From NCBI GenBank assembly GCA_947087265.1, contig CAMUBY010000002.1:124001-188000 (forward strand): DNA of 64,000 nucleotides. Reading direction: 5' to 3'. A program made the translations under genes and the position numbers. The notes below the pieces were generated by a model. The model was given only the letters and a program-made list of their open reading frames with translations. It did no database searches and was not told the DNA's origin. This document shows, in pieces, positions 17,217 to 60,413 of the stretch. The stretch comes from an uncultured Clostridia bacterium. GTDB lineage: Bacteria; Bacillota; Clostridia; Christensenellales; Borkfalkiaceae. How positions within the stretch are numbered: the stretch's first letter is position 1; every line of letters starts with the position of its first letter.

Positions 17217-17490
17217 AAAAAAACTGTGAGGGCTTTTTTTGTTGCCGATTGCCGAAGCGTTAACACGGCAGGTGACTCCGACAAAGCTACCTTATGGCAC
17301 ACGCACCTGTCTGTTTAGTGCTGCTGTATCCCTACCCTGACACGGTTCGCAGGGGTGCGTTGCATAAGACCTTGTTATCAACATCCCTTGCCGTATGCTG
17401 CCTTCCACGATCGGCACCGAGAAAAGCGTTCGGTTCTGCTATAGCGGATTGCAGATACAGGGCACCGCTAACTCCCCACCTATCACAGCC
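17217..17490 (-). ncRNA. ffs: Signal recognition particle RNA, large bacterial type with Alu domain
   Basis: The minus strand reads as a large SRP RNA of about 270 nt, like the Bacillus subtilis scRNA. Near the 5' end it has GGGGAGTTAGCGGTGCC followed by CTGTATCTGCAATCCGCT, the Alu-domain region. Domain IV, read from 17340 to 17321, has CAGG, a GTA/TAC stem, a GGGA tetraloop and AGCAG. This is the Ffh-binding hairpin with a GNRA-type GGGA in place of the common GGAA. The terminal helix pairs CTGTGA near 17487 with TCACAG near 17224 and is followed by seven T, a terminator. Short plus-strand open frames here are shadows. Confidence 0.93.
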
Positions 17491-22747: not shown

Positions 22748-23554
22748 TTAAGCGTTTTCTGCCAGAGTATAAATTAAATTCATGGTAACGCCTTGATTGG
22801 TAATGCTTAAAGTTAGTTGATTGTTCGATAAAGTAGCGTTTTGCGCCTCGCCGTTTACGGTCATCACTAGCGCCGCTGAGTTCTGCGTATAGGTACCCGT
22901 TGCCGTGTTTCCCATAACGCTCATCGTAAAGCCGCCGTTCGAATCGAATGCGACGGTTGAATCTGCGTACCCTGCTTTTAACGCTGCAAGCGAGTTGTTT
23001 AATTCGTCTTTCACTTCTTGGTTAACCGAACTGTTAAACGAAACCGACAAATCGGAAAAGTTGAACGTTTTTCCTGCAACGGTAATCACACTTGCATCGC
23101 CCTCGTCTTCGTTTTCGTTATCTCCGCCGCTGATTTCGCCGACGCTCGATTTATCTAATCGATAAGTAAGTTTGAAAGAAAGTCCTTCTTCGGAACCGCT
23201 CATCGTGATAGAATTGCCCGAAACTTTGAAATTCTGGTCTTCGCCGTACAGGGTCGCCGTTACGGTTGCGCCGCTTTGCGTATAGGTGCCGTTTACCGCG
23301 GTACCCATCATGACCATCTTAAATTCACCGTTTTGCCCGAATTCGAGATAACCGTCTTCATACATTTCGTTCAGCATTTCCTCTGCCAATTCTTTTTCTG
23401 CGCCGGTTGCGCCTTGGGTGATTTCAGCTTTTTCGAAATTGTACTTCTTTCCTGCTACGGAGTCTGCATTTCCGTCGCCGCAAGCGGCAAGCCCGAGTAC
23501 GCAGGCAACGCAAGCAATGAGTGCGATAAGTGTGGTGACAAATCTTTTTTTCAT
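22748..23554 (-). CDS. Lipoprotein with two tandem repeat domains
   Basis: 268 residues. The signal MKKRFVTTLIALIACVACVLG ends in lipobox LAAC, so it is an outer-surface lipoprotein. Two related domains follow, starting VAGKKYNFEKAEI and VAGKTFNFSDLSV; each has a GTYTQ stretch before a short beta-rich end. A linker rich in Asp, Glu and Gly separates them. The neighbour at 23846 has the same architecture, so they are paralogues. The start at 23554 is fixed by AAGGAGAATC. The transcript leader carries the structured RNA at 23577-23735. Function unknown. Confidence 0.85.
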   Translation of the reverse strand: MKKRFVTTLIALIACVACVLGLAACGDGNADSVAGKKYNFEKAEITQGATGAEKELAEEMLNEMYEDGYLEFGQNGEFKMVMMGTAVNGTYTQSGATVTATLYGEDQNFKVSGNSITMSGSEEGLSFKLTYRLDKSSVGEISGGDNENEDEGDASVITVAGKTFNFSDLSVSFNSSVNQEVKDELNNSLAALKAGYADSTVAFDSNGGFTMSVMGNTATGTYTQNSAALVMTVNGEAQNATLSNNQLTLSITNQGVTMNLIYTLAENA

Positions 23555-23576
23555 GTTTTGATTCTCCTTGTAAAAT

Positions 23577-23735
23577 AAAAAAAGTGTGTTTCCAAACCGA
23601 AAACACACTGCACTGCATCTCCGATTTGTCACCACACAAATGATACCGATAAGACACAACACAAAGGTATAAAGAGATACACAATGCCTAATGATTGTGA
23701 CCCCTCGTGTCGTGTTTTATTCACTTGTGTGGTGT
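23577..23735 (-). ncRNA. Structured leader RNA, copy 1 (two stems, pseudoknot, terminator)
   Basis: Read on the minus strand from about 23735. P1 pairs 23725-23734 with 23630-23639 (CACCACACAA/TTGTGTGGTG). P2 pairs 23707-23715 with 23654-23662 (one G-T). In the loop, GTATCTC (23680-23674) and GCAT (23687-23684) can pair with GAGATGC and GTGC at 23621-23615 and 23613-23610, just 3' of P1, as a pseudoknot. A terminator follows (stem GTGTGTTT/AAACACAC, T-run to 23577), 22 bases before the lipoprotein start. Same plan as the copies at 43547 and 60231. Confidence 0.75.
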
Positions 23736-23741
23736 ACTTGC

Positions 23742-23770
23742 AGTATAGCATAAAATTTTCAGAATTACAA
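23742..23770 (-). promoter_or_regulatory. Sigma-A promoter of leader RNA copy 1
   Basis: Minus strand TTGTAA (23770-23765), 17 bp, TATACT (23747-23742). The expected transcription start coincides with the 5' end of stem P1. Confidence 0.75.
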
Positions 23771-23845: not shown

Positions 23846-24628
23846 TCAGTAATTTCGTAACTTGTATATATAGGTATATATAGAATCGGAAAGGCCAGTT
23901 TTCTCGTAGCGGATTGTATCCTCGACAACAGTAATCTTGATAAGATTGTTGGAACTGTCGGTCAGTTCGAGACTTGTGTTGTTTTGGATATAAGTACCCG
24001 TTTGGGTGGAGCCGCTGTACGAATAATATTGCTTGTAGCCGCCGTTGTTGTCGAATGCAAAATATGATCCTACGTAATCATACTGAATCAATATAAGTTG
24101 TCGTTTCATTTCTTCTGCCGTTTCTTTATTCACAGAATCGGCAATCTCTAATTTAACGTCTGAAAAAACGAATTTCTTTCCTGCAACCTTCATTCCGGTG
24201 CTTCCGATTTCGCCTGTGTTTTCGCTCACGAACCGATAGGTTAGTTTCGTCACTTTGTTGTAATTGTCGGTTAAATACCACGAAACGGTATCGCCTTTCA
24301 CCTTAAAATCAAACTCGAAGGGGATGTTGTCAAGGTCTATCTGAACGCTTTTGCCTTTCTGTTTGTAAATGCCGATATAAGATTGACTGTCGATACCCAT
24401 TTCGCAGTAGTTGCCGTTGCCGAACGCGATGTAACTTCCTTTACAACTTTCGTTCAAGGCGGAATCAGGAACATAGCCGATGGCGCCTTCGCTTTTTACG
24501 AGTGCCTTTTCAAAAACGTATTTCTTACCCGCAACGGGTTCGGCGCTGTTTCCGCAGGCAACCAGCCCGATAACGCACGCCGCGCAAGCAATCAACGCAA
24601 CGAGTATTTTTACGATTTTCTTTTTCAT
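23846..24628 (-). CDS. Lipoprotein paralogous to the 22748 gene product
   Basis: 260 residues. Signal MKKKIVKILVALIACAACVIG with lipobox LVAC. As in its neighbour, two domains begin with a shared motif: VAGKKYVFEKALV and VAGKKFVFSDVKL, the second followed by EIADSVNKETAEEMKRQL, which parallels NSSVNQEVKDELNNSL in the neighbour. Both have GTYIQN or GTYTQN near the end. AAGGAG precedes the ATG. Its promoter is framed by an 8-bp inverted repeat. Unlike its paralogue it has no structured leader RNA. Function unknown. Confidence 0.83.
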   Translation of the reverse strand: MKKKIVKILVALIACAACVIGLVACGNSAEPVAGKKYVFEKALVKSEGAIGYVPDSALNESCKGSYIAFGNGNYCEMGIDSQSYIGIYKQKGKSVQIDLDNIPFEFDFKVKGDTVSWYLTDNYNKVTKLTYRFVSENTGEIGSTGMKVAGKKFVFSDVKLEIADSVNKETAEEMKRQLILIQYDYVGSYFAFDNNGGYKQYYSYSGSTQTGTYIQNNTSLELTDSSNNLIKITVVEDTIRYEKTGLSDSIYTYIYKLRNY

Positions 24629-43512: not shown

Positions 43513-43541
43513 TTGACATTTCGATAGACGTATGCTAAGAT
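43513..43541 (+). promoter_or_regulatory. Sigma-A promoter of leader RNA copy 3
   Basis: TTGACA (43513-43518), 17 bp, TAAGAT (43536-43541). The expected start is the first base of stem P1. Confidence 0.8.
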
Positions 43542-43546
43542 ACCTA

Positions 43547-43690
43547 TGCTACACAATTTTATAATCGACACGAGGCGTATAATGCGAAATTTGTACCGCC
43601 TTTCTTACCTCGTGTCGAGAAATTGTGTAGCAACAATCAGGCGGTTGCATTTTCGGGGTGTGCCTCTTGATTGGGGCACACTTTTTTTTA
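43547..43690 (+). ncRNA. Structured leader RNA, copy 3 (two stems, pseudoknot, terminator)
   Basis: P1 pairs 43547-43559 with 43620-43632 (13 perfect pairs, TGCTACACAATTT). P2 pairs 43565-43575 with 43608-43618 (11 perfect pairs, TCGACACGAGG). In the P2 loop, AATGC (43581-43585) and ACCGCCT (43595-43601) pair with AGGCGGT (43639-43645) and GCATT (43647-43651) just after P1, making a two-part pseudoknot. A terminator follows (GTGTGCC/GGCACAC, eight T), 18 bases before the small membrane protein gene. Same plan as the copies at 23577 and 60231. Confidence 0.8.
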
Positions 43691-43707: not shown

Positions 43708-43929
43708 ATGTTTCAAAAAAACAAGAATTTATTATTTGCCGCACAGTGCATTATGTATACAATTCTTGTCCTCATCGCTTGTGGCGCAGCTGTTTCCGGA
43801 GTAATATGCATGGCGTATGTTAGCATTAAGCTCGGCATTATTACTATAATAATGGGATTGGTAGTTTTTGCCGTTTTGTTTAGTTTTTGGTTTTGTTTAG
43901 TTTTTGGTTTTGTTTATTTGAGTTTCTGA
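43708..43929 (+). CDS. Small two-helix membrane protein, C-terminus frameshifted by a tandem repeat
   Basis: As it stands this codes for 73 residues with two membrane helices (LLFAAQCIMYTILVLIACG and LGIITIIMGLVVFAVLFSFW). Inside the second helix a perfect 17-bp tandem duplication shifts the frame and leads to an early stop. Removing one copy restores an open frame of 109 residues whose hydrophilic tail ends KTEKPIDIYNKD with a stop at 44052. AAGGAGG precedes the ATG, and the transcript leader is RNA copy 3. No family recognised. Confidence 0.75.
   Translation: MFQKNKNLLFAAQCIMYTILVLIACGAAVSGVICMAYVSIKLGIITIIMGLVVFAVLFSFWFCLVFGFVYLSF
43874..43916 (+). repeat. 17-bp tandem repeat, two full copies and a partial third
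   Basis: TTTTGTTTAGTTTTTGG at 43874-43890 and again, identical, at 43891-43907, followed by TTTTGTTTA. 17 is not a multiple of 3, so copy number decides the reading frame. Confidence 0.95.
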
Positions 43930-57247: not shown

Positions 57248-60184
57248 TTACTCTTTCGGCAAATCCCCGTCCGTACAGTGAACGGTGTAGTCAGGTGTAT
57301 TAAAATTCCAATGATAACCTTTTTTAATCGCGTTCCATTCCGCTTTCGTTCCTTTGAAGTGAATATCGGTAAGTTTCTCGCAACCACTGAACGCAGAATA
57401 TTCGATACTTTTTACGCCGTTTCCGATTGTAACGTTTGTAAGGGATTTACAATCATAGAACGCATACTGTCCGATACTTGTTACGCCGTCGGGAATTACA
57501 AGTTCACCCGATAATTCTTTGCCGTTGATATATAACGTTCGGCTACTTGACATTAAATAATCAAGTCCCGATATTCCGCACCAACTTGCAATATCGCCCG
57601 TATGGGTAATGCTTGTAAGGGAATCGCAATCATAGAACGCATCCTTTCCGATACTTGTAACACTATTCGGAATGGTAACGCTTGTAAGTTTACTGCAACC
57701 CAAGAACGCATACTGTCCGATACTTGTTACGCTGTTTCCAATTGTAACGCTTGTAAGAGATTGGCAATAATAGAACGCATAACTTCCGATACTAGTTACC
57801 CCATTTCCGATTGTAACGCTTGTAAGTTTACTGTAACCCCTGAACGCGTCCTTTCCGATAGTTGTTATGCTGTCAGGAATGGTAATTGCGCCGCTAAGTT
57901 TCGCAGGGATATATAAAAATTCCGTTTTATTTTTATTGTATAAAATTCCGTCTTGGCTTGCGTAGTTTGAGTTGTTTTCAGAAACCTTAATGCTTGCAAG
58001 GGAACTGCAATTCTCGAACGCAGAATCTCCGATACTTGTAACGCTGTTGGGAATGGAAATGCTTGTAAGAGATTTGCAATACTTGAACGCACTATCTCCG
58101 ATACTTGTAACGCTGTCGGGAATTGTAACGCTTGTAATTTTACTGCAATCCTCGAACGCAGAATATCCGATACTTGTTACGCTGTTGGGAATGGTAACGC
58201 TTGTAATTTTATTGCAACCATAGAACGCGCAATTTCCAATACTTGTTACGCCGTCGGGAATTACAAGTTCACCCGATAATTCATTGCCGTTGATATTTAA
58301 CGTTCGACTACTTGACATTAAATTGTTAAGTCCCGATATTCCGCACCAACTTGCAATATCGCCCGTATAATAAATGCTTGTAAGTTTACTGCAACCACTG
58401 AACGCATACTTTCCGATACTTGTAACGCTGTCGGGTATGGTAACGCTTGTAAGTTTACTGCAACCATTGAACGCAGAATTTCCGATATTTGTTACGCCGT
58501 CGGGAATGGTAATTGCGCCGCTGATTGCTTTTGGAATAAGAAGAAATTCTGTTTTGTCTTTATTGTATAAAATTCCATCTTGGCTTGCGTAGTTTGAGTT
58601 GTTTTCAGAAACCGTAATGCATGTTAGGTTACTGCAACCACTGAACGCGTCCTCTCCGATACTTGTAACGCCGTTTCCGATTGTAACGCTTGTAAGGGAA
58701 CTGCACCACATAAACGCAGAATTTCCGATATTTGTAACGCTGTTTCCGATTGTAACGCTTGTAAGGGAACTGCAACCTTCAAACGCAGAATTTCCGATAC
58801 TTGTTACATTGTTCGGAATTGTAATTTTCGTAATGTCGCAACCATAGAACGCAGAAGCTCCGATACTCGTTACGCTGTTGGGGATAATAATACTTTTCAG
58901 GGAAGAGCAATCCTTAAATGCAGAATCTGCAATCGTTAAAGTACCTTCCTTTATCATGTAGTCTTCGGGAAGGGTGTTTTTTGCCCGAATTAAATGCTTG
59001 CCGCTGTATAATACGCCGTCTTTCCAATTGCTTTCGTTTTTGTAGTATGGGGTACGGGATAGCGCGTTTTCTCCGACTCCTGTAATTCCGTCTCCGAGGA
59101 ATACCGTCTGAATTAAATTTTCATATTCTTTGGGAATTCCGTTGAATTTTCCGTTTCCCGAAACTTTGAGGGAGAAGGTTACGCCCTCATAGATATAGCC
59201 ATTGTATTCCCCGTCGGAAAGGGCGGTCAGCATTCCCAAAAAGCCGTTGCCAAAGTCTACCGTGAGTTTTGCTCCCGCTTTAATTTCTTTCCCGACCGTA
59301 GCAGACGTTTCGTAACTTCCGTATTTATCTTGCCAAATCACTTTACATTCATTTCTTACGCTTGAAGTATCGCCCTCCACCTCAGCGGTAGCGTAGCCTT
59401 TTTGGTAACTGCCGTCTTTGTATTTTATTTGATAGGCGATTTCCGCTTCGGTTGCGTACATGGGAACTATAATTTCTTCACCGTCCGCACTTTTTACGCT
59501 CGAAACTTTCTTTTCGGTATTCTCGGCGGAGCGGATGCGTTTCGCGTCGAACCAAACGTGGGTAACAAGCCCGTTTTCGTCGAACTTCACTTGAATATAT
59601 TTATGCTTTTGCGTTTCCAACTTCATGCCGTCCTCTAAAATCTGTTCGAGGTTGTTCATCATATCTTCCTCGCTCTCATTCAGGTGCATGAGTTTCAAGT
59701 AACTGTCGTTATAATATTCCCAAGTGCGCTCGTCTGAAAGGTCGGGCTTGCCGAGTACTTTTTGCACCGCCGCCTTGTCGTCGCCCAAATCGATTGCGGA
59801 AACTTTCCCCGAACGGAAAATGTTGGTTAAGTAGGGAATGACGGTGGAAAGAATAATCACCAATGCCAGAGCCAGCGCGGCAACTACGCTTATCACAATT
59901 TTGTGCCGTTTCAAAAAAGGCAGGAATTTCCCTTTCATACAGGGCACGAATTTGCCCTTGTACCAACTCACAATCGGGTTGGGCTTTTTCTCTTTCTGCG
60001 CCTGCGCTTCTTTGCTGTTCGGCACGGTGTAAAGGTCGGCGCCGCAGTTTCCGCAGAATTTTTTGCCCTCCGCAACTTCCGCGCCGCACCAGGGGCAGCG
60101 GTGTACGCCGCTTTCGGCAGGCGTTCCGCATTCGGGGCAGAAGTTGCTTTCAAATTCTGCGCCGCATTTTGTGCATTTGTTCAT
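57248..60184 (-). CDS. Zinc-ribbon, membrane-anchored BspA-type leucine-rich repeat protein
   Basis: 978 residues. Two zinc ribbons at the N-terminus (CTKCGAEFESNFCPECG; CPWCGAEVAEGKKFCGNCG) precede one membrane helix (about 95-119, VISVVAALALALVIILSTVI), an SmpA/PepSY-like region, and a long run of LRR_5 repeats of about 23 residues (pattern IPNSVTSIGASAFYGCSSLT). The ribbons should be cytoplasmic and the repeats outside, where BspA-type repeats often bind host or matrix proteins. Insert blocks starting VSENNSNYASQDGILYN and GDIASWCGISGL each occur twice. Start at 60184 with AAAGGAGAAG. The leader is RNA copy 2. Confidence 0.88.
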   Translation of the reverse strand: MNKCTKCGAEFESNFCPECGTPAESGVHRCPWCGAEVAEGKKFCGNCGADLYTVPNSKEAQAQKEKKPNPIVSWYKGKFVPCMKGKFLPFLKRHKIVISVVAALALALVIILSTVIPYLTNIFRSGKVSAIDLGDDKAAVQKVLGKPDLSDERTWEYYNDSYLKLMHLNESEEDMMNNLEQILEDGMKLETQKHKYIQVKFDENGLVTHVWFDAKRIRSAENTEKKVSSVKSADGEEIIVPMYATEAEIAYQIKYKDGSYQKGYATAEVEGDTSSVRNECKVIWQDKYGSYETSATVGKEIKAGAKLTVDFGNGFLGMLTALSDGEYNGYIYEGVTFSLKVSGNGKFNGIPKEYENLIQTVFLGDGITGVGENALSRTPYYKNESNWKDGVLYSGKHLIRAKNTLPEDYMIKEGTLTIADSAFKDCSSLKSIIIPNSVTSIGASAFYGCDITKITIPNNVTSIGNSAFEGCSSLTSVTIGNSVTNIGNSAFMWCSSLTSVTIGNGVTSIGEDAFSGCSNLTCITVSENNSNYASQDGILYNKDKTEFLLIPKAISGAITIPDGVTNIGNSAFNGCSKLTSVTIPDSVTSIGKYAFSGCSKLTSIYYTGDIASWCGISGLNNLMSSSRTLNINGNELSGELVIPDGVTSIGNCAFYGCNKITSVTIPNSVTSIGYSAFEDCSKITSVTIPDSVTSIGDSAFKYCKSLTSISIPNSVTSIGDSAFENCSSLASIKVSENNSNYASQDGILYNKNKTEFLYIPAKLSGAITIPDSITTIGKDAFRGYSKLTSVTIGNGVTSIGSYAFYYCQSLTSVTIGNSVTSIGQYAFLGCSKLTSVTIPNSVTSIGKDAFYDCDSLTSITHTGDIASWCGISGLDYLMSSSRTLYINGKELSGELVIPDGVTSIGQYAFYDCKSLTNVTIGNGVKSIEYSAFSGCEKLTDIHFKGTKAEWNAIKKGYHWNFNTPDYTVHCTDGDLPKE
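57350..58960 (-). repeat. Tandem 69-bp-scale leucine-rich repeat units with higher-order duplication
   Basis: About twenty units encoding the repeating TSIG-x-x-AF-x-x-C pattern. Two longer segments recur nearly identically: the one around 57950-57985 again at 58570-58606, and the one around 57500-57580 again at 58260-58370. This shows duplication of multi-repeat blocks. Confidence 0.85.
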
Positions 60185-60230: not shown

Positions 60231-60378
60231 AAAAAAGGCGCGCCCTCAACCGAAGACGCGCCCTGCATTCCGTATCTCCGAGTTGTTACCACGCAACTAA
60301 ATTTAACCCCACAGGATAATAGAGATACAAACAATGCCATTTTGTACCTGAGGAGTAAAATTTATTCAGTTGCGTGGT
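60231..60378 (-). ncRNA. Structured leader RNA, copy 2 (two stems, pseudoknot, terminator)
   Basis: Read on the minus strand. P1 pairs 60368-60378 with 60288-60298 (11 perfect pairs, ACCACGCAACT). P2 pairs 60347-60360 with 60302-60315 (two mismatches). In the loop, GCATT (60337-60333) and GTATCTC (60328-60322) pair perfectly with GAGATAC (60278-60272) and AATGC (60269-60265), just 3' of P1, forming a pseudoknot. A GC-rich terminator follows (GGCGCG/CGCGCC, six T ending at 60231), 46 bases before the BspA-like start codon. Copy 1 shares GAATAAA after P1 and the GTATCTC element. Confidence 0.8.
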
Positions 60379-60384
60379 AGTTGC

Positions 60385-60413
60385 AGTATAGCAAACGGGC
60401 GGAAAAAAGTCAA
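60385..60413 (-). promoter_or_regulatory. Sigma-A promoter of leader RNA copy 2
   Basis: Minus strand TTGACT (60413-60408), 17 bp, TATACT (60390-60385). The expected start is the first base of stem P1. Confidence 0.82.

Follow-up and report, generated by a model that had tools for sequence, protein, structure and literature searches.

A leader RNA of Clostridia with pseudoknot, antiterminator and terminator, a probable cis-acting transcription attenuator

Described switching RNAs and the element in the window

SAM-II, preQ1-II and c-di-GMP-II are pseudoknotted aptamers that overlap with their expression platform. c-di-GMP riboswitches precede surface genes in Clostridia. The EAR, put and LoaP leaders are structured RNAs for processive antitermination. 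In guanidine-IV (mepA) and HMP-PP (thiS) RNAs, discussed in PMC8632094, the switch includes the intrinsic terminator hairpin, whose loop region takes part in pairing. The raiA motif RNA is ModT in C. difficile (PMC11706538). Fremin and Bhatt (PMC8040213) described 3161 candidate structured RNAs from human microbiomes.

The window analysed here is a stretch of 64,000 nt from an uncultured Clostridia bacterium. It contains three copies of an RNA element, named copy 1 (23577-23735), copy 2 (43547-43690) and copy 3 (60231-60378). Judged from sequence comparison, the element is probably a cis-acting transcription attenuator, most likely of a new riboswitch-like class (probability about 0.8). As in an attenuator, an intrinsic terminator lies between promoter and gene and is opposed by a competing, covarying antiterminator helix (S1). 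As in a riboswitch, there is an aptamer-like domain, with a pseudoknot helix (PK1) that shares 5-6 nt with S1 in 124/184 copies.

The terminator hairpin, loop region included, appears to take part in the switch as it does in guanidine-IV and HMP-PP. Those RNAs are short, whereas the present RNA has a separate 100-nt rod of helices P1, P2 and P3 with a long pseudoknot, and its R strand has both pseudoknot and antiterminator partners. As in SAM-II, preQ1-II and c-di-GMP-II, the 3' pseudoknot strand is common to a regulatory helix and the folds are mutually exclusive. The element differs from these three in giving no sequence or model match, in pseudoknot strands that are not conserved in sequence and in a host without detected GGDEF proteins. 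It resembles the EAR, put and LoaP leaders as a structured RNA near the transcript start, upstream of terminators and often of surface-associated genes, but it has a cis antiterminator helix and no Rfam match. Like the raiA motif it is a widespread structured Clostridia RNA of similar size. In contrast to that motif it gives no Rfam match, is multi-copy and precedes diverse genes with an antiterminator and a terminator.

No Rfam 15 match was found at the RNA copies of the window or at 32 related loci (20 related loci at the gathering threshold and 12 class-level loci under permissive settings). Permissive searches of the window copies up to E=10 gave chance-level matches only. The sequence-only reading had known no matching family and had proposed this check, and on that point it was upheld. 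Guanidine-IV and HMP-PP gave no match, provided both models belong to the set searched. T-box RNAs were rejected as a candidate, as no T-box match was obtained in the window, the 20 related loci or the 12 class-level loci. Elsewhere in the window Rfam matched nothing but a bacterial large SRP RNA at 17224-17488 on the minus strand (RF01854, 166 bits). No literature on Christensenellales riboswitches was found, and the searched parts of the 26- and 50-genome RNA discovery papers name no matching motif. The main text of PMC8040213 names no such class; the unnamed candidates of that set may contain fragments of the present class, and the family could be among the unnamed candidates of such earlier large surveys. 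The type of mechanism is thus known, while the RNA family is absent from Rfam 15 and unrecognised in the literature examined. It is quite improbable that the element belongs to a known Rfam class and has diverged too far for the model to recognise it. An aptamer-like rod with a pseudoknot followed by a terminator is a layout common to several riboswitch classes, and terminator-embedded switching is known for the guanidine-IV and HMP-PP types (PMC8632094), but Rfam 15 was matched by none of the many Clostridia subtypes tried, permissive searches included.

Layout of the three window copies

The three copies were read directly. They follow one common plan, as the sequence-only reading had proposed; their strands, which it had left unstated, are given in Table 1. 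In all three the order is promoter, P1, P2 inside P1, a two-part pseudoknot (PK1 and PK2), intrinsic terminator and same-strand gene. The promoters are of sigma-70 type with a 17-nt spacer each. P1 starts at the expected +1 of the promoter in 3/3 copies, in agreement with the earlier placement, which makes its first base the probable transcription start. The pseudoknot links the P2 interior with the strand directly 3' of P1 in each copy. Its strands were confirmed by sequence as originally given, including those of the 60231 copy. A swapped AATGC/GCATT also exists as described, but the copy that carries it, at 43547, is not third when the copies are ordered by coordinate. The distance from the terminator to the same-strand start codon is 20-50 nt. 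Folding energies were below those of 200 dinucleotide shuffles (z -6.7 for copy 3, -6.7 for copy 1 and -8.7 for copy 2). P2 of copy 1 was misaligned by MAFFT in the trimmed alignments A2 and A3, and alignment A1 with a hand-made structure was used.

Directly upstream of copy 1 and on the same strand, a gene at 23846-24628 (minus) encodes a 260-aa weakly DUF5640-like protein. No RNA copy was detected before this gene. The lipoprotein encoded behind copy 1 has a weak match to the same domain.

Table 1. Coordinates of the RNA copies, their helices and the genes behind them, in window positions, with the loci of tandem pairs.
Feature	Position	Strand	Sequence or description	Evidence
Copy 3, reading direction	60378->60231	-	full pseudoknot GCATT..GTATCTC / GAGATAC..AATGC	direct reading
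Copy 3 -35 element	60408..60413	-	TTGACT, 17-nt spacer to -10	sequence
Copy 3 -10 element	60385..60390	-	TATACT	sequence
Copy 3 P1 5' strand	60364..60378	-	from presumed transcription start	
Copy 3 P1 3' strand	60288..60302	-		
Copy 3 P2 5' strand	60347..60356	-	9/10 pairs	
Copy 3 P2 3' strand	60306..60315	-		
Copy 3 PK2 5' strand	60333..60337	-	GCATT, in P3 loop	sequence; swap test
Copy 3 PK1 5' strand	60322..60328	-	GTATCTC	sequence; swap test
Copy 3 S1 5' strand	60274..60281	-	UCGGAGAU, overlapping PK1 3' strand	
Copy 3 PK1 3' strand	60272..60278	-	GAGATAC	sequence
Copy 3 PK2 3' strand	60265..60269	-	AATGC	sequence
Copy 3 terminator hairpin	60237..60262	-	T-run 60231-60236	
Copy 3 S1 3' strand	60250..60257	-	GUCUUCGG, within terminator 5' arm and loop	
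Copy 3 downstream gene	57248..60184	-	978-aa zinc-ribbon and BspA-type LRR protein	Pfam LRR_5 6e-134, Zn_Ribbon_1 1e-8
Copy 1, reading direction	23735->23577	-	full pseudoknot GCATT..GTATCTC / GAGATGC-AGTGC	direct reading
Copy 1 -35 element	23765..23770	-	TTGTAA	sequence
Copy 1 -10 element	23742..23747	-	TATACT	sequence
Copy 1 P1 5' strand	23721..23733	-		
Copy 1 P1 3' strand	23631..23643	-		
Copy 1 P2 5' strand	23703..23715	-		
Copy 1 P2 3' strand	23654..23667	-		
Copy 1 pseudoknot 5' strands	23674..23687	-	GCATT 23683-23687, GTATCTC 23674-23680	sequence
Copy 1 pseudoknot 3' strands	23610..23621	-	GAGATGC 23615-23621, AGTGC 23610-23614	sequence
Copy 1 antiterminator 5' strand	23617..23628	-	CAAAUCGGAGAU, 12 bp	
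Copy 1 antiterminator 5' portion	23621-23628	-	CAAAUCGG; counterpart segment CCGGUUUG	
Copy 1 antiterminator 3' strand	23593..23604	-	GUUUUCGGUUUG	
Copy 1 terminator hairpin	23583..23609	-	T-run 23576-23582	
Copy 1 downstream gene	22748..23554	-	268-aa lipoprotein, lipobox LAAC, lipocalin-like domain	
Copy 2, reading direction	43547->43690	+	full pseudoknot AATGC..ACCGCC / GGCGGT-T-GCATT	direct reading
Copy 2 -35 element	43513..43518	+	TTGACA	sequence
Copy 2 -10 element	43536..43541	+	TAAGAT	sequence
Copy 2 P1 5' strand	43548..43559	+		
Copy 2 P1 3' strand	43620..43631	+		
Copy 2 P2 5' strand	43565..43575	+		
Copy 2 P2 3' strand	43608..43618	+		
Copy 2 pseudoknot 5' strands	43581..43600	+	AATGC 43581-43585, ACCGCC 43595-43600	sequence
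Copy 2 pseudoknot 3' strands	43640..43651	+	GGCGGT 43640-43645, GCATT 43647-43651	sequence
Copy 2 antiterminator 5' strand	43634..43641	+	CAAUCAGG	
Copy 2 antiterminator 3' strand	43666..43673	+	CUUGAUUG	
Copy 2 terminator hairpin	43657..43682	+	T-run to 43689	
Copy 2 downstream gene	43708..43929	+	73-aa membrane protein	no Pfam match
Tandem-pair loci	L090, L078, L157, L179, L180, L181, L184, L186, L188, L225, L228, L233, L277, L282			

Covariation and distribution

P1, P2, the terminator and the pseudoknot covary strongly among 228 distinct copies. Alignment A6 holds 100 distinct genus and family copies, and in it standard pairs occupy 94.8% of the cells of P1, P2, PK1 and the terminator. A single position of P1 shows as many as five types of pair. 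These copies contain 965 double changes compared with 271 in shuffles (reached by 0/500 shuffles) and have a covariation score of 0.655 compared with 0.22. Pairing falls to 35-37% when the partner is slid by one column. Swap tests compared own-partner pairing with pairing to the partners of other copies. For 184 copies they gave z=49 for P1, 68 for P2, 27 for the terminator, 26 for S1 and 16 for PK1. Non-redundant representatives, which differ from each other by 2 nt or more on both strands (3 nt or more for PK1), gave z=21 for S1 (n=85), 11 for PK1 (n=56) and 6.8 for PK2 (n=45), values reached by 0/5000 permutations. Pair counts, shuffles and swap tests all point to the covariation in P1, P2 and pseudoknot that the sequence-only reading had put forward as its check.

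PK1 is wholly different between subtypes (GUAUCUCU/GGAGAUAC, ACCGCC/GGCGGU, AAAAAUGC..CUC/GAG..GCAUUUUU and GUGUC/GACAC). Unpaired conservation is limited to AACAAU after P1 and GGCA/GGUA in the P3 loop. The spacing between promoter and P1 is nearly constant. An extended -10 is present in 220/228 copies, although this feature is partly built into the search model, and a terminator hairpin with a U-rich tract is present in all 228 aligned copies, the terminator likewise belonging to that model. The promoter statistics are partly circular because the model includes promoter and terminator columns. In the class-level subtypes (L261-L314) the R strand and the P3 3' strand are complementary (AAAAGGUGU / ACACUUUUU). 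Pseudoknot formation would thus displace P3 there; alternatively, a triple helix could form with the U-rich strand.

The S1 antiterminator was missed in the sequence-only reading. It is formed by the segment directly 3' of P1, typically CAAUCGGAGAU, with the upper 5' arm and loop of the terminator, GUCUUCGGUUG. It is usually 8-13 bp long, with at least 8 bp in 137/184 copies, most commonly 11-12, and is weak (4-6 bp) in 35/184. Covarying S1 pairs include CAAAUUCGGAGAU/GUUUCCGAGUUUG, CAAUCGUGGGAU/GUUCCAUGAUUG, CAAUUAAGGGAU/GUCCCUUAAUUG, CUAUCGGGAC/GUUUCGGUAG and others. In 156/228 copies S1 occupies 5 nt or more of the 5' arm of the terminator. S1 and PK1 have 5-6 nt in common in 124 of the 184 copies, whereas in 32 they overlap by no more than 1 nt or not at all. 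Owing to these shared nucleotides the pseudoknot, the antiterminator and the terminator exclude each other.

Two covariance models were used, R1 built on the three window copies and R2 built from 101 copies. R1 matched 84/101 genomes of the host genus with up to 14 copies per genome. R2 matched 115/151 genomes and 17/18 genera in the family, and 63/200 genomes and 35/102 genera in the order. In a Clostridia-wide draw it matched 71/291 genomes and 44/180 genera, often several times per genome, at E <= 1e-5, where E-values are rough owing to short model calibration. The proposed covariance-model search thus yielded hundreds of matches in related genomes. The family spans about a quarter of the sampled Clostridia genera, and structured RNA classes of such frequency would rarely be expected to be absent from Rfam. 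Among the contigs with matches are some of Candidatus Coproplasma, Borkfalkia and Gallimonas. Of 299 genomes drawn from the whole phylum, none but the host genome gave a match at E <= 1e-5. The promoter and terminator are part of the covariance model, and it could in principle match any promoter, hairpin and terminator by chance. This reading was refuted by the contrast between the phylum draw and the Clostridia draw and by the swap tests on S1 and the pseudoknot, whose pairs are absent from the structure of the model and thus test its matches independently.

Tandem RNA pairs occur at 14 loci, about 180-290 nt apart and before one gene. At the three pairs that were read (L157, L180, L181) each copy has its own promoter-like sequence and terminator. 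Two IMG/VR virus contigs of 61 and 64 kb (L273, L274) carry near-identical RNA copies before a 76-aa zinc-finger gene, and the RNA may travel with prophages. A blastn search with a single class-level copy found no copies on plasmids or in named phages.

Transposon-borne attenuators before unrelated genes have been described by Naville and Gautheret (PMC2965389). The number of copies in a genome, their position before unrelated genes and the copies on the two virus records would also suit a mobile or repeated element spread with transposons and lacking regulatory meaning. Such an origin is very improbable, as copies of the same genome differ throughout P1 and P2 yet keep pairing, and the gene calls showed no conspicuous link with transposases. 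The S1 strands also pair better within a copy than between copies of one genome (19.5 compared with 14.9). Trans cross-talk between copies is disfavoured by this difference, but own and cross pairing often tied (19/65), and some cross-talk may occur.

Proposed switching and downstream genes

The RNA shares its strand with the next gene for 177/181 genus, family and order copies and 41/44 class-level copies, together 218/225. The strand of the upstream gene is mixed (104/63 and 24/16, respectively). The start codon typically lies 25-40 nt beyond the terminator stem (median 39 nt in genus, family and order, 27 nt at class level). This leaves little space for a second promoter, and expression should therefore need read-through. 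A peptide-leader attenuator was rejected since uORFs of at least 8 codons led by an SD sequence occur in only 21/228 copies. The sequence-only reading had offered a riboswitch or attenuator and a free small RNA as options. In the latter the terminator would end an sRNA of about 145 nt and the adjoining gene would have another promoter. Every copy has its own promoter and terminator, and termination would release a stable, structured RNA. A free sRNA is nevertheless improbable in view of the same-strand genes at short distance, and the covarying antiterminator would have no role in it. As that helix is meaningful only in cis, the cis attenuator is favoured.

In the proposed attenuator the leader would be transcribed from the first base of P1 and fold first into the P1-P2-P3 rod. 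The R strand, about 22 nt directly 3' of P1, would then have competing partners. It could form PK1 and PK2 by docking inside P2/P3. Alternatively R could wait, and its 5' part would capture the emerging 5' arm and loop of the terminator as S1. If S1 did not form, the terminator hairpin would close and RNA polymerase would stop just before the gene. A stabilised pseudoknot would leave the terminator free (OFF), and in its absence S1 would form first and allow read-through (ON). The pseudoknot state should be OFF because PK1 and S1 share 5-6 nt, and this assignment is somewhat favoured over its reverse. An antiterminator commonly wins kinetically in attenuators. Here the median energies are -15.8 kcal/mol for the terminator, -11.0 for S1 and -9.0 for PK1. 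The terminator thus beats S1 at equilibrium, and antitermination would have to be kinetic. The antiterminator makes the switch directly testable by a simple in vitro transcription assay.

The signal is most likely a metabolite or ion, and a protein or an effect of elongation rate is possible. The genes under its control vary too much to point to any one signal. GGDEF proteins were found neither in the host genome (98% complete) nor in 21/24 genus relatives, and control genomes were positive. c-di-GMP is disfavoured as the ligand, given a host without GGDEF proteins and the lack of an Rfam match. Against a ligand stand the limited conservation of unpaired positions and the complete change of pseudoknot strands between subtypes, the latter being unusual for a small-molecule pocket. 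The same attenuator could instead sense a protein (ribosomal or associated with RNA polymerase) or a put-, EAR- or LoaP-like factor of processive antitermination, with no small molecule involved. This is a tentative alternative. The P1 sequence is conserved (ACACAA at 78-89% per position), which suggests duplex recognition at the very 5' end, the pseudoknot sequence is free to vary, and the genes are diverse and often long. Processive antitermination, however, acts on the polymerase and a dedicated covarying antiterminator would be unneeded; such leaders gave no Rfam match, EAR included provided its model belongs to the set searched.

A wider proposal has about an even chance of being right. 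The element would be a new, very common Clostridia riboswitch class that answers one widespread signal. It would switch sets of surface lipoprotein, zinc-ribbon and accessory genes through a three-way choice between pseudoknot, antiterminator and terminator, with tandem pairs acting as two-step or steeper switches. If the element is a riboswitch, its ligand would be a signal by which gut Clostridia control surface proteins, and hundreds of uncharacterised surface and accessory genes would gain one regulatory logic.

Among 109 downstream proteins, 46 have BspA-type LRR_5 and about 10 are zinc ribbons. Others include List_Bact_rpt, DUF6273, GIY-YIG nuclease, EcoRI-type methylase, AAA, ABC and Bmp proteins. 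A simple lipobox pattern marked 102/177 downstream proteins as lipoproteins. Class-level downstream genes also encode secreted, AbrB-like and many small uncharacterised proteins, as named from our reading of their sequences. The earlier statement that the RNA always precedes surface or membrane genes holds in the window but not family-wide, where nucleases and small uncharacterised proteins also follow it. Surface genes are a strong tendency and no rule.

The host genome has two further copies, at C15:7437-7624 and, divergent, at C2:20149-20382. The divergent fifth copy, 234 nt in length, directly follows a tRNA; its inner hairpin is long and its R strand is GACTATCGGAGTTTGCG. It resembles a subclass that precedes 284-aa proteins elsewhere (L257, L258), one of them with a GIY-YIG domain.
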